From Mesorhizobium shangrilense (GTDB lineage Bacteria; Pseudomonadota; Alphaproteobacteria; Rhizobiales; Rhizobiaceae): DNA of 64,000 nucleotides. This document shows positions 11,772-16,132 of this stretch, piece after piece. The DNA lies in assembly GCF_028826155.1 (NCBI RefSeq), contig NZ_JAQGPN010000001.1, forward strand, positions 1,369,501 through 1,433,500, given 5' to 3'. Position 1 is the first letter of the stretch, and each line of letters opens with the position of its first letter. A program made the translations under genes and the position numbers. The notes beneath the pieces were generated by a model. That model saw only the letters and a program-made list of their open reading frames with translations. It had not been told where the DNA came from and searched no databases.

Positions 11772-12305
11772 ATGAGTGAGCTTTTCATGAGCGCCGGCAA
11801 CACGGTCAAGCTGGCGGAACGGCGCGTCTTTTCCGATTCCTTCAAGCCGCTCTACAACGAGGGCATGGGTCTGGTGGAGCAGACGGCCGCCTATCTCGAC
11901 GGTCCGGGCCGCGCCGAGGCGAAGAAGCTGTCGCGCATGGCGGCGACGCTCTATGCGGCGGAGTCGATGCGGCTGACCACGCGGCTGATGCAACTGGCGT
12001 CATGGCTGCTGCTGCAGCGGGCGGCCAACGCGGGCGAGATGACGCGCGAGCAGGTCGCTTCCGAAAAGTCCAAGGTGCGTCTGGACACGGCGTCGGCCAG
12101 CCAAGACGTCGCCGGCTGGATCGAATTGCCTGACGAGTTTCGTGACCTCGTGGCCCGTTCGCTGCGGCTGCAGACGCGTGTGCGCCATATGGACGACCAG
12201 ATCTATGGTTCCGGGGACGCGCCGGCGCTGTCGCTGGCTGCCCACCGCACCAATGCGGTGTCGGAACAGATCAGGCTTCTCAACACCGCCTTCGCCCGGG
12301 GCTGA
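11772..12305 (+). CDS. rcdA: RcdA, regulator of CtrA degradation (DUF1465 family)
   Basis: 177 residues, all alpha-helical in character with no membrane segment. Conserved family regions include [20 protein letters not shown] (about 24-43), [20 protein letters not shown] (about 66-85) and [18 protein letters not shown]. In Caulobacter RcdA is an adaptor that helps deliver CtrA and other clients to ClpXP in cell-cycle-timed proteolysis. ATG 11772 is followed by a second in-frame ATG five codons later. A full CtrA box lies upstream. It precedes ruvC by about 75 bases, the usual order in Rhizobiales. Confidence 0.86.
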
Positions 12306-12379
12306 CACGGGCTCCACCCGCATCTCCCGCGCCGTCGGGTCGCTGTGGTGAAGGATGCCGTCGACGGGTAGTGTCGGCC

Positions 12380-12886
12380 ATGGCAGAAGCGATTCGCATC
12401 ATCGGTATCGATCCCGGACTACGGCAGACCGGATGGGGCGTCGTCGAGACGCTCGGCAACTCGTTGCGCTTCATCGCTGCCGGCACAGTGTCGTCGGATG
12501 GCAAGGCGGAACTGGCGACGCGGCTTTGCCAGTTGCACGACGGGCTGGTCGAGGTCATCGACTTCCATCAGCCGCTGGAGGCCGCAGTGGAGCAGACCTT
12601 CGTCAATAAAGACGCGGTGGCGACGCTGAAGCTCGGGCAGGCGCGCGGCATCGCGATGCTGGTGCCTGCGCGCGCCGGCCTGGCCGTCGCGGAGTATGCG
12701 CCGAATGCGGTGAAGAAGGCGGTCGTCGGCGTCGGCCATGGCGACAAGCGGCAGATCCACATGATGGTGAAGGTGCTGATGCCGAAGGCGGTGTTCAACA
12801 CGGAGCACGCCGCCGACGCGCTGGCGATCGCCATCTGCCACGCCCATCACCGACAGAGCGCAGCCCGGCTGGCACGGGTGGGCTGA
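12380..12886 (+). CDS. ruvC: Holliday junction endodeoxyribonuclease RuvC
   Basis: 168 residues from ATG 12380 ([13 protein letters not shown]); a GTG at 12371 would add three codons. RuvC resolves Holliday junctions after RuvAB branch migration. Catalytic acidic residues are visible: Asp11 in IIGIDPGL, Glu in AVEQTFVN near residue 71, and the C-terminal pair in [16 protein letters not shown]. Length is normal for the family. It is the first ruv gene, but unlike the usual tight ruvCAB order it is separated from ruvA by a VapBC toxin-antitoxin pair. Confidence 0.95.
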
Positions 12887-12909
12887 GCCGCACCCAGTCG
12901 CGGATGTTC

Positions 12910-12957
12910 TTGACATGTTCCGCTCTGGCCCGTAGGTAATACTGCGGAGGTATTACC
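12910..12957 (+). promoter_or_regulatory. Promoter and palindromic operator of toxin-antitoxin pair 1
   Basis: TTGACA at 12910-12915 makes a good -35 element; a weak TAGGTA follows 17 bases later. An inverted repeat GGTAATAC (12935-12942), 7-base spacer, GTATTACC (12950-12957) covers the Shine-Dalgarno GGAGG and ends right at the antitoxin ATG. AbrB/VapB-VapC complexes typically bind such palindromes to autorepress. Confidence 0.75.
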
Positions 12958-13206
12958 ATGCGCGTGACGGAAAAAGGCCAGGTGACCATACCGAAGAACG
13001 TTCGTCGGCATCTCGATATCCGACCCGGAAGCGAGGTTGAATTCACCTTCGCCGGCGACGGAGCGCTGCTGAGGAAGGTCGAGGTTTCCAGCGAGGAGCG
13101 AAGCCGCGAGGTGCGCGAACTCCTTGATCACATACGCAAGCACAAGGGATCGATGAACTTGGCGGGCATGACCTCGGACGAGTTCTACAAGATGCTGCGC
13201 GACTGA
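12958..13206 (+). CDS. AbrB/MazE-fold antitoxin (VapB-like), pair 1
   Basis: 82 residues. The swapped-hairpin DNA-binding domain covers residues 1-45 (MRVTEKGQVTIPKNVRRHLD, then IRPGSEVEFTF), the hallmark of SpoVT/AbrB proteins. The C-terminal half is charged and ends in DEFYKMLRD, the likely toxin-wrapping segment. The stop overlaps the toxin ATG (TGATG), giving translational coupling. It presumably neutralises the PIN ribonuclease and represses its own promoter through the palindrome at the start codon. Confidence 0.9.
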   Translation: MRVTEKGQVTIPKNVRRHLDIRPGSEVEFTFAGDGALLRKVEVSSEERSREVRELLDHIRKHKGSMNLAGMTSDEFYKMLRD

Positions 13207-13619
13207 TGGGAACGCTGGTCGACACCAACGTTCTCGTCGATCTGTTCGACGTCGGGGGACAGTGGGAGGAATGGTCCGTAGCCCAGATAGCGGCGGCCCG
13301 CGAGGCAGGACCCATCGTGATCAATCCGCTGATCTATGCGGAAATGGCCGCAGGTTACGACTTCGAATCCGAGCTCGAGGCGAGCCTCTCTCCAACGCAG
13401 TTCCTGCGGGAGGATCTGCCGTGGAACGCGGCTTATCTGGCAGGCCGGGCGTTTGCCGTCTATCGCCGGTCGGGAGGCGTCAAGCGGTCTCCCTTGCCCG
13501 ACTTCTACATAGGCGCCCATGCACTCGTCGGCGGCCATACCTTGTTGACCAGAGACAGAGGCCGCTACGCGTCTTACTTCCCGATGTTGCGGATCATTTC
13601 TCCGGACACGCATCCATGA
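13206..13619 (+). CDS. PIN-domain ribonuclease toxin (VapC-like), pair 1
   Basis: 137 residues, one PIN domain. The acidic catalytic set is complete: Asp6 (LVDTNVLVD), Glu46 (IYAEM), Asp99 ([10 protein letters not shown]) and Asp117 (TRDRGRY). VapC toxins cleave tRNA or rRNA in an Mg2+-dependent way when released from the antitoxin. Nothing suggests decay: the reading frame is intact and coupled to the antitoxin. The ruvA start is only 10 bases past this stop, so ruvA transcription may depend partly on read-through from this operon. Confidence 0.92.
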
Positions 13620-13629
13620 GGACATTGGC

Positions 13630-14250
13630 ATGATCGGCAAGCTGAAGGGCGTGATCGACGAGATCGGCGAGGACCATTGCATCGTCGACGTGCATGGCGT
13701 CGGCTACGTCGCCCATTGCTCGACGCGCACGCTGTCGCACCTGCCGGGAGAGGGCGTCGCGGTCACGCTGTTCATCGAGACCTATGTGCGCGAGGACATG
13801 ATCCGCCTCTACGGCTTCGAGTCGGCGCTCGAGCGCGAATGGTTCCGGCTGTTGATGGGCAACGTCCAGGGGGTCGGCGCCAAGGTGGCGCTGGCGGTGC
13901 TGTCGACGCTGTCGCCGTCCGACCTCGCCAACGCCATCGCGCTGCGCGACATCGCCATGGTTTCCCGCGCGCCCGGCGTCGGCAAGAAGGTGGCGGAACG
14001 CATCGTCACCGAGCTGAAGAACAAAGCGCCCGCCTTCGCGGGCGAGGCGTCCGGCACGATCGGCCTGAAGCAGGAACTCGGCGAGGGCGTCGCACCCGCG
14101 CCGATCGCCGACGCGGTCTCGGCGCTGACCAATCTCGGCTACTCGCGTGACATCGCGGCGAACGCCATCGCCGCGGCGCTGAAGACGGCCGGCGAGGGGG
14201 CGGATTCGGCGAAGCTGATACGCCTCGGGCTGAAGGAGCTGGCGCGGTAA
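13630..14250 (+). CDS. ruvA: Holliday junction branch migration protein RuvA
   Basis: 206 residues. Tetrameric DNA-binding subunit that targets RuvB to four-way junctions. Begins [20 protein letters not shown], the OB-fold domain. Helix-hairpin-helix motifs follow around [15 protein letters not shown] (residues 78-92) and [19 protein letters not shown] (about 115-133). A flexible linker and the C-terminal RuvB-binding domain end in [14 protein letters not shown]. It starts 10 bases after the VapC1 stop, and another toxin-antitoxin pair separates it from ruvB. Confidence 0.95.
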
Positions 14251-14269
14251 TCATTGATAGCTGCAGGTA

Positions 14270-14312
14270 TCCTTACTATTGTTATAGGTAAGGACGTTGT
14301 AGGAGGTAAGGA
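14270..14312 (+). promoter_or_regulatory. Inverted and direct repeats at the start of toxin-antitoxin pair 2
   Basis: TCCTTAC (14270-14276) and GTAAGGA (14288-14294) form an inverted repeat with an 11-base AT-rich spacer. A third copy of GTAAGGA (14306-14312) overlaps the ribosome binding site and the antitoxin ATG. Likely an autoregulatory operator. It differs in sequence from the operator of pair 1. Confidence 0.65.
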
Positions 14313-14596
14313 TGGGCGTCTTGGCGACGATAACTGCCAAAGGGCAGATCACGCTGCCCAAAGAAGTGCGCGTCCGCCACGGATTAAAGCCCGGCGATTC
14401 CGTCGAGTTCGTCGAAGAGGATGGACGGACATATGTCCAACCGCGGAAGATACGGGCGATCGACCTCGCGGGAATTCTTGGAAGGCCGCCGTCGGGCGAA
14501 AGCCTGGCGATCGAAGATTTCGACGATGCGATCATGGATGCAGTTGCGGAAGACTGGGACGAGTTCGAGCGACGGAATCGGGAGTCGGAAACTTGA
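14312..14596 (+). CDS. AbrB-fold antitoxin (VapB-like), pair 2
   Basis: 94 residues. The AbrB domain is at residues 1-45: LATITAKGQITLPKEVRVRH then LKPGDSVEFVEEDG. The C-terminal segment (about 50-94) is acidic and holds a DFDDAIMDAVAEDWDEFERR stretch that should wrap the PIN toxin. The ATG follows AGGAGG. The stop overlaps a TTG start for the toxin (TTGA). It shares only the domain type with the antitoxin at 12958, so the two pairs are not a recent duplication. Confidence 0.9.
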   Translation: MGVLATITAKGQITLPKEVRVRHGLKPGDSVEFVEEDGRTYVQPRKIRAIDLAGILGRPPSGESLAIEDFDDAIMDAVAEDWDEFERRNRESET

Positions 14597-14991
14597 TAGG
14601 CGTGGACACGAACGTGCTCCTGCGCCTGCTCATCGAGGAGGATTCCGAACAGTGCGCGCGATCCCGCGCGTTCTTCTCTCAGCGGACCGCCCGCGATCCG
14701 GCATTTGTCAGCAGCATCGTTCTCGCGGAACTGATCTGGCACTTGCGGCGCCGCTTTCGGTACACGAACGACACCATCTTGCGGGTGCTGGGGACAATGA
14801 CGCAAAGCGCGGAGTTTCGGTTCGAGCATGGCGACAAACTGCGGGCATTCCTTGCGGAGCAGACGAGAACGCCATCCGACGTCGCCGACGCGATGATCGC
14901 CTGGTCCAGTCTTGCGGCGAACTGCGATCAGATCGTCACTTTCGACAAGCGCTCAGCCAAGAAGATCCCCTCCATGGAGTTGCTTGCGTGA
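14593..14991 (+). CDS. PIN-domain ribonuclease toxin (VapC-like), pair 2, TTG start
   Basis: 132 residues from TTG 14593, which overlaps the antitoxin stop by four bases (TTGA). The PIN residues are present: Asp5 ([11 protein letters not shown]), Glu46 (VLAELIWHL), Asp99 ([10 protein letters not shown]) and Asp118 (VTFDKR). A longer in-frame ORF back to 14254 would overlap the antitoxin and is rejected. Like pair 1 it appears intact. It lies between ruvA and ruvB with about 100 bases before the ruvB GTG. Confidence 0.9.
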
Positions 14992-15094
14992 GCGCAACAA
15001 CATTGACATCGGCGACGCTCGGCGTCGCAACGATCATGAATTCATCCTCGGGTTTCCCTGCGGTTGCCTCCAGATTTCTTGCGCCGAGGCTCAC

Positions 15095-16132
15095 GTGAGC
15101 CTTTCCCCGCGCCTCATCTCTTCCGAAAAGCGCGGCGAGGACGCCGACCAGACGCTCAGGCCGCAGACGCTGGACGACTTCGTCGGCCAGCAGGCGGCGC
15201 GCGCCAACCTGAAAGTGTTCATCGAGGCGGCCAAGGGCCGCGGCGAGGCGCTCGACCACGTGCTCTTCGTCGGCCCGCCGGGGCTCGGCAAGACGACGCT
15301 CGCCCAGATCATGGCGCGCGAGATGGGGGTGAACTTCCGCTCGACCTCCGGCCCGGTGATCGCCAAGGCGGGCGACCTTGCGGCGCTGCTGACCAATCTG
15401 GAGGAACGCGACGTCCTCTTCATCGACGAGATCCACCGCCTCAACCCGGCGGTCGAGGAAATCCTCTATCCGGCGATGGAAGATTTTCAGCTCGACCTCA
15501 TCATCGGCGAGGGGCCGGCGGCGCGCTCGGTGAAGATCGACCTCGCCCGCTTCACGCTGGTGGCCGCGACCACGCGGCTGGGGCTGCTGACCAACCCGCT
15601 GCGAGACCGTTTCGGCATTCCGGTGCGGTTGAACTTCTACACGGTCGAGGAACTGGAACTGATCGTACGGCGCGGGGCGCGCATCCTCGGCATGCCGCTT
15701 GGCGACGACGGCGCCACCGAGATCGCGCGCCGGGCGCGCGGCACGCCGCGCATTGCCGGGCGCCTGCTCAGACGGGTACGCGACTTCGCGACGGTGGCCG
15801 GCGCCGACAGCGTGTCGCGGAAGGTGGCCGACGAGGCGCTGTCCAGGCTGGAGGTGGATTCGCTCGGGCTCGATCAACTCGACCGCCGCTATCTCTCGAT
15901 GATCGCGCAGAATTTCGGCGGTGGTCCGGTGGGTGTCGAAACCATCTCGGCGGCGCTGTCGGAGCCGCGCGACGCCATTGAGGACATCATCGAGCCCTAT
16001 CTCATCCAGCAGGGCTTTATCCAGCGCACGCCGCGCGGGCGGGTGCTGACCGCGAACGCCTGGCGGCATCTCGGGCTGGAGGCGCCGCGCGACCTGGCGC
16101 AGCAGCAGTTCGGGCTGTTCCAGGAGGAGTGA
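15095..16132 (+). CDS. ruvB: Holliday junction branch migration helicase RuvB, GTG start
   Basis: 345 residues from GTG 15095, behind CGAGG. AAA+ motor of the RuvAB complex. Walker A is [11 protein letters not shown] (about residue 63), Walker B FIDEIH (near 109), sensor 1 [18 protein letters not shown], and the arginine-rich C-terminal winged helix contains [11 protein letters not shown]. Family length is usual (about 345). A longer ORF upstream to 14912 has no start support and overlaps toxin gene 2. The two toxin-antitoxin pairs mean ruvC, ruvA and ruvB probably no longer rely on one promoter. Confidence 0.96.

Follow-up and report, generated by a model that had tools for sequence, protein, structure and literature searches.

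Why do chromosomal toxin-antitoxin (TA) pairs persist? This long-standing question is raised by a 64,000-nucleotide stretch of the Mesorhizobium shangrilense genome (assembly GCF_028826155.1, contig NZ_JAQGPN010000001.1, positions 1,369,501 to 1,433,500; hereafter the window), in which the Holliday-junction genes ruvC, ruvA and ruvB are parted by two TA pairs, giving the one-direction order ruvC, vapB1-vapC1, ruvA, vapB2-vapC2, ruvB. A preliminary description made from the window had reported both pairs and suggested that ruvA might be transcribed partly from the promoter of the first. It missed a LexA (SOS) box at 12906-12920 that lies over the -35 element of the vapBC1 promoter. Analysis of this box and of ruv loci in relatives led us to the interpretation, to which we give a probability of about 0.72, that vapBC1 opens an SOS-inducible vapBC-ruvAB operon predicted to be repressed by LexA and by VapBC itself. 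On that view the sequence itself connects a TA pair to the promoter of a core repair machine, and does so across a bacterial family. The features of the cluster, with coordinates counted from the first letter of the window, are as follows.

12371-12886, + strand: ruvC, GTG start (PF02075, E 8e-44)
12904-12920, + strand: LexA (SOS) box ATGTTC-TTGACA-TGTTC, core GTTCN7GTTC at 12906-12920
12910-12915, + strand: -35 element TTGACA inside the LexA box, with -10 element TAGGTA at 12933-12938 after a 17-nt spacer
12935-12957, no strand: inverted repeat GGTAATAC-N7-GTATTACC, probable VapBC1 operator, covering the -10 element and the ribosome site GGAGG at 12946-12950
12958-13206, + strand: vapB1, AbrB/MazE-fold antitoxin, 82 amino acids (PF04014, E 2e-12)
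13206-13619, + strand: vapC1, PIN toxin, 137 amino acids, acidic residues D6, E46, D99 and D117 (PF01850, E 2e-8)
13630-14250, + strand: ruvA (PF01330, PF07499), start 10 bases past the vapC1 stop
14254-14282, + strand: weak promoter-like site ahead of vapB2, lacking a LexA box (1 match, against a mean of 0.5 in shuffles)
14270-14312, no strand: repeats TCCTTAC (14270-14276), GTAAGGA (14288-14294) and GTAAGGA (14306-14312), probable VapBC2 operator
14312-14596, + strand: vapB2, AbrB/MazE-fold antitoxin, 94 amino acids (PF04014, E 8e-12)
14593-14991, + strand: vapC2, PIN toxin, 132 amino acids, TTG start, acidic residues D5, E46, D99 and D118 (PF01850, E 2e-13)
15095-16132, + strand: ruvB, GTG start (PF05496, E 3e-80), 103 bp after vapC2

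The Pfam domains and coordinates confirmed that both gaps of the ruv cluster hold an intact AbrB/PIN pair, with an antitoxin/toxin overlap of 1 base in pair 1 and 4 bases in pair 2, a distance of 10 bases from vapC1 stop to ruvA start and operator-like repeats ahead of each pair (12935-12957; 14270-14312), all as the preliminary description had it. The VapC2 frame had no match to VapC1 at E 1e-3, but the two antitoxins are alike at the AbrB end (52% identity, E 1e-7). In both pairs an AbrB/MazE-fold antitoxin gene directly precedes and overlaps a gene for a PIN-domain toxin with conserved acidic residues. Because the best matches to the curated VapC models of NCBIfam fell below their cut-offs (NF047959, 34.6 of 80 bits; TIGR00028, 28.7 of 73.6 bits), the name VapBC-type rests on domain and architecture. 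A search of solved structures with VapC1 and VapC2 alignments returned nothing beyond weak matches, to the VapC protein VapC15 and to a chain labelled PcrIIC1. The genome (5.5 Mb) contains 23 PIN genes. An assembly artefact was rejected, as the same arrangement recurs in many named genomes.

What, then, would control such a cluster? The sequence GTTCTTGACATGTTC (12906-12920), 19 bases past the ruvC stop, is an exact copy of the LexA motif printed for alphaproteobacteria as GTTC-N7-GTTC (PMC3323433, available text), and with its preceding bases it also fits (A/T)TGTTC-N6-TGTTC, of which it is the sole match in the 64-kb window. The presence of lexA in this genome, preceded by one exact and one one-mismatch box, was also established. 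Locus counts given here come from an uneven sample, in which the named loci represent the closest 80 of 512 relatives and identical loci were counted once (199 distinct of 210, of which 194 have a measurable ruvC-ruvA gap). The -35/-10 spacing of the vapBC1 promoter is repeated in the consensus of 46 relatives. Adjacent to the box lie the operator arms GGTAATAC (12935-12942) and GTATTACC (12950-12957), and inverted-repeat arms of at least 8 bases were found in 58 of the 82 filled loci versus 10 of 1640 shuffles. The inverted repeats before both pairs, which are similar in relatives, are putative autoregulatory operators.

The vapBC1 promoter shows two properties of a putative LexA regulon member, namely the alphaproteobacterial motif within the promoter (exact, over the -35 element) and conservation of the site in relatives. 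Of the 82 distinct loci in which vapC1 is intact, 81 had the exact GTTCN7GTTC box in the ruvC-ruvA gap, against 0 of 89 whose gap is at most 60 bp; the 15-mer of the box was GTTCTTGACTTGTTC in 74 of these 81. Across the 151 family genomes searched, GTTCTTGACNTGTTC had 65 matches in 63 genomes, 62 of them sitting 68-1520 bp upstream of ruvA on the ruvA strand, compared with a single match for the reversed control pattern. The box belongs to the ruv site and not to the toxin family. Among 20 homologous VapC1-type loci elsewhere in family genomes (a set that leaves out G043 and G045, near contig ends, and weak or partial matches), no exact box was found in the 420 bp before vapC; four carried a one-mismatch box (L234, L243, L245 and L252), and most retained a similar operator by eye. 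The exact box was likewise found in none of 12 further homologues in a class-wide sample. Outside ruv, GTTCTTGACNTGTTC had three matches only (G092:C1:442204, G085:C1:3012917 and G149:C15:518151), which are possible other SOS promoters.

A less perfect box about 50 bp upstream of ruvC was found in 164 of 192 loci, in agreement with the published view that ruvCAB of alphaproteobacteria is SOS-controlled (PMC3323433, available text). This outer box is absent in the window, where the best match has 5 mismatches, and its loss leaves the vapBC1 promoter as the only SOS site recognised by our scans in the cluster. Among relatives, ruvC had no box of its own in 14 of 81 loci with the inner box versus 6 of 89 without it (p 0.054), and we do not claim that ruvC loses its box once the inner one exists.

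Does this promoter reach the ruv genes? The distance from vapC1 stop to ruvA start ranged from -4 to 59 bases in the 82 loci, with a median of 10; it was 30 bases or less in 80 of them, including 23 with a 4-base overlap. As this leaves almost no room for a promoter between vapC1 and ruvA, ruvA is very likely expressed through the vapBC1 promoter with its SOS-type box. The regulatory idea of the preliminary description was right in direction, and the case for it is stronger than could be seen there. No forward terminator-like site was found between vapC1 and ruvA in a sigma-70/terminator scan of 12200-15300, and no antisense vapB or vapC match in the 199 distinct loci. The arrangement proved widespread in relatives, which together with separate ruvA and ruvB promoters would speak against regulation through the TA promoter; there was no sign of a separate ruvA promoter where vapBC1 is present. 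Further along, vapC2 runs 4 bases into ruvB in 37 of 43 relatives; in the window, where 103 bp part the two genes, ruvB may have a promoter of its own. The weak site before vapB2 was the only promoter listed by the scan of 12200-15300, and the best match to the longer LexA consensus had at least 3 mismatches in all 68 vapB2 upstream regions.

The same order has been seen in Rhizobium leguminosarum 3841, where RL3987-RL3990 are vapB-vapC-ruvA-ruvB and VapBC was noted directly before ruvA, so that VapBC beside ruvA is already known in one strain (PMC11406972); the available text of that account differs from ours in that it takes up neither an SOS box nor an insertion, a second gap or a pattern of evolution. 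In that strain all four genes are listed as needed for attachment to roots at all pH values; three of them, vapC, ruvA and ruvB, are further listed as needed at all stages, with vapB in another stage class (PMC11406972, available text). This result was read by its authors as a TA role; it is explained just as simply by polarity on ruvAB, which agrees with a single transcript. In rhizobial genetics, a transposon insertion in a vapBC pair of this kind may in effect score the loss of ruvAB.

Taken as a mechanism, the proposed operon would be shut twice in resting cells, with LexA on the box at 12906-12920 covering the -35 element and VapB1-VapC1 on the adjacent repeat covering the -10 element. 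DNA damage would strip LexA, and loss of VapB would release the second lock. The transcript would then yield antitoxin, toxin, RuvA and probably RuvB through read-through and tight spacing, so that synthesis of VapC1, a PIN ribonuclease, would coincide with that of the Holliday-junction machine, and the toxin may hold back growth during repair. DNA repair and a growth-slowing toxin may in this manner share one promoter, and VapBC2 would be another pair that regulates itself, placed before ruvB and outside SOS control.

Several observations weigh against an SOS-inducible vapBC-ruvAB operon. The short motif GTTC-N7-GTTC is commonplace in the window (2 found, 1.8 expected), and because it is not rare by itself the case for the box rests on conservation and position. 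The -10 element of vapBC1 is weak (TAGGTA) and a generic sigma-70 scan did not list the promoter, and in this genome's recA stretch the same motif scan found nothing of the box type. The box is also lacking from one filled locus, L153. The box was found in 0 of 89 loci with a ruvC-ruvA gap of 60 bp or less, a figure partly forced by the scant room in such gaps, and in 15 of the 23 remaining loci. In R. leguminosarum, the separate stage class of vapB is unexplained by polarity alone (PMC11406972, available text). VapBC1 is missing from 102 of 149 family genomes. The box upstream of ruvC was also kept in 67 of 81 filled loci with the inner box, and SOS control of ruvAB there need not depend on the inner promoter. 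Lastly, the box stood 68-206 bp before ruvA in 15 loci in which neither vapB1 nor vapC1 was called, among them L032 from G074, the one genome sampled from the genus of the window, and the SOS promoter may serve ruvAB alone with vapBC1 riding on it.

These toxin-less loci favour a passenger model, in which the inner SOS promoter is that of ruvAB. A selfish vapBC1 would happen to sit between promoter and ruvA, kept there by addiction and because breaking up the operon would be costly, and toxin and repair would share a promoter with no functional benefit. The 15 loci indicate that the SOS promoter can precede ruvAB with no TA pair in between. In four of them (L191, L208, L213 and L215) the 3 kb upstream contained no recognised ruvC, the gene being elsewhere or missing. 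The module has decayed behind the box in L036, L038 and L076, three more loci with box and vapB1 but no intact vapC1, and in L148, one of the 15, where a vapB1 remnant remains; here the box may instead be a leftover of the module. Both TA genes are also under purifying selection about as strong as that on ruvA, which counts against a passenger role. We consider this model a serious rival, plausible though somewhat short of even odds.

How widely and how stably are the two gaps occupied? An even sample was provided by a family census in which 151 genomes from 109 genera were searched, 150 had a ruvA match and 149 were compared, leaving out G066 (ruvA at a contig end) and G001 (no ruvA match). 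Both pairs were present in 26 genomes, VapBC1 only in 21, VapBC2 only in 25 and neither in 77. Among these 77 are genomes with remnants of a pair and a few in which a contig end interrupts the gap. For the last 19 genomes of the census, scoring relied solely on the match and the length of the gap. VapBC1 therefore occupied the ruvC-ruvA gap in 47 of 149 genomes and VapBC2 the ruvA-ruvB gap in 51 of 149, indicating that the pairs are widespread but very patchy. The preliminary remark that ruvC, ruvA and ruvB are normally contiguous is true of about half the family, the 77 genomes with no intact pair, and fails for the other half.

On a Ruv tree of 167 rows, from which loci without a complete ruvB were left out, VapBC1 presence required at least 39 state changes (149 rows; 30 shuffles had a mean of 48 and a minimum of 42) and VapBC2 presence at least 26 (136 rows). 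The Ruv proteins of L091 and L109 are 99% identical, with one gap empty and the other filled. Alleles are also swapped between close relatives: VapC1 is 47% identical between L186 and L188 (Ruv 99%) and 44% identical between L085 and L130 (Ruv 98%), with the box in each and a differing operator in L085. Such alleles most simply represent replacement in place, for which recombination through the conserved ruv flanks would be the route. Both the patchy presence and the swapped alleles also favour the passenger model.

The preliminary description had read the two occupied gaps as an insertion hotspot, that is, a ruv cluster that draws repeated independent TA landings. Two different modules in adjacent gaps fit this idea, as do tandem second copies, with two vapBC1 modules in one gap of L161, each with a LexA-type box, and two vapBC2 modules in L195. 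The two pairs co-occurred above expectation in the census (26 of 149, odds ratio 3.8, p 0.0004), and an association was also seen over 123 rows (Fisher p 0.025), but the proposal that they travel together was not upheld after pairing by descent (median p 0.69). An extra vapB1 with a box stands ahead of a full vapBC1 in L039 and L090. An open reading frame of about 300 codons lies between ruvC and ruvA in L217, L226 and L231, ahead of vapBC1 in L217.

The trees are less favourable to repeated landings. All 82 ruv-gap VapC1 proteins fell on one side of a single branch (Shimodaira-Hasegawa-like approximate likelihood ratio test, SH-aLRT, 100) against 19 non-ruv family homologues, L253 having been left out for its short frame, and the best 50 VapC2 matches in the 151 genomes searched (at least 54 bits, 49 genomes) all lay just downstream of ruvA, in the ruvA-ruvB gap. 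Against in-family homologues each gap thus holds one ruv-specific lineage, in a single orientation throughout, and not the many independent lineages of a hotspot; the hotspot claim is not supported. The matter is less settled with distant homologues. With 8 of these from the class added, and L217 and L219 left out for their long branches, the VapC1 tree needed 2 label changes, 1 of them forced by starred branches, and VapC2 with 18 class homologues needed 3, again with 1 forced. A class-wide search of 289 genomes, including this one, with at most 14 candidates scored per genome, showed VapC1 or VapC2 homologues in other families, with strong VapC2-profile relatives outside ruv (up to 142 bits). 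Among the 47 class-wide loci listed, only the window's own had ruv genes within 1.5 kb on either side. No target duplication was seen by eye at the compared junctions (12 pairs), which counts against a hotspot and on which ground a mobile element was rejected; the gaps yielded no recognisable member of another TA family, with many of their open reading frames left without identification. We judge a hotspot improbable. As VapBC1 and VapBC2 differ from each other, two entries are implied, apparently old, and a recent double insertion was rejected. A single entry into each gap, early in the history of the family, is the probable course, followed by loss, decay or exchange in place, although the distant homologues would also accommodate a second entry per gap.

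Are the toxins still toxins? The acidic residues D6, E46, D99 and D117 of VapC1 were kept in 81-82 of 82 ruv-locus homologues, and D5, E46, D99 and D118 of VapC2 in 60-63 of 63; we take these to be the catalytic PIN acids. The median ratio of non-synonymous to synonymous substitution (dN/dS) was 0.096 for vapC1, 0.102 for vapB1, 0.091 for vapC2, 0.070 for vapB2 and 0.08-0.09 for ruvA, as calculated from close, non-independent pairs. An intact vapC without its vapB was never seen (0 of 82 for vapC1, 0 of 63 for vapC2), while vapB without any vapC match was found in 7 loci (2 vapB1, 5 vapB2), an asymmetry that is the pattern expected of an active toxin. Domestication, by which VapC1 and VapC2 would now be RNA-processing enzymes or, with VapB, mere regulators tuning ruvA and ruvB, could explain why the same gaps are occupied across the family with near-constant spacing to ruvA and ruvB. 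All four PIN acids are retained, an antitoxin sometimes stands alone and an intact toxin never does, and the pairs have been lost repeatedly, all of which speak against domestication and leave it a very slight chance, below even that of a hotspot.

A broader interpretation, which we offer tentatively and regard as rather unlikely in its full form, is that the ruv cluster acts as a two-slot docking site in which TA alleles swap between species like cassettes and the SOS promoter stays. The VapBC of slot 1 would serve as a second, LexA-independent repressor of ruvAB, and Holliday-junction processing and an RNA-cleaving growth brake would be deployed and switched off together in the SOS response.

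The closest known parallel to the SOS-inducible vapBC-ruvAB operon is HigBA-HigX of Caulobacter crescentus, a type II TA module with a high-affinity LexA site that was inserted before an unrelated chromosomal gene, which thereby became SOS-controlled; a TA-borne LexA site before a chromosomal gene is therefore already known, and it is limited to genomes with the TA at that place (PMC13384398, available text). The window box fits the consensus printed in that paper, (T/A)TGTTC-N6-TGTTC. HigBA differs in being another TA family, which stands upstream of higX in 4 of 68 genomes aligned and is regarded as having arrived recently (PMC13384398, available text), in comparison to a PIN/AbrB module here, with the repair genes ruvAB downstream and family-wide spread with allele exchange. 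In Vibrionaceae, ruvCAB also contains inserted genes, and some species have separate LexA sites before ruvC and ruvAB, but these gammaproteobacteria have another LexA motif and the available text does not describe the inserts as TA pairs (PMC3323433). VapBC10 of Sinorhizobium meliloti, from a related genus, is likewise chromosomal with a 1-nt gene overlap, and its toxin was shown to cut tRNA; it lies at another locus, and neither the string ruv nor the string SOS appears in the available text (PMC10945364). Among the matches listed from openly licensed literature, no title or abstract opening reported an SOS-controlled VapBC in a ruv cluster.

Close relatives supply natural controls in which the pair is present, absent, reduced to the box or to the antitoxin, or represented by a swapped allele. 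With these, TA retention for host-gene control, toxin action in the SOS response and passenger status become directly testable.

Some minor observations were made alongside. A variant, GAAC-N7-GTAC, is readable in the sequence of this genome's recA stretch. The end of a glyA-like gene (by eye; Pfam-checked for L243) lies directly before 7 of the 20 non-ruv VapC1-type loci (L241, L243, L246, L247, L249, L251 and L252), which include this genome's second copy, and the glyA flank is perhaps another fixed docking site. The gene before ruvC in the window (11772-12305) is rcdA, a member of a protease-adaptor family, and about 1.4-1.5 kb separate rcdA from ruvC in L085, L097, L099, L105, L125, L127, L130 and L132.

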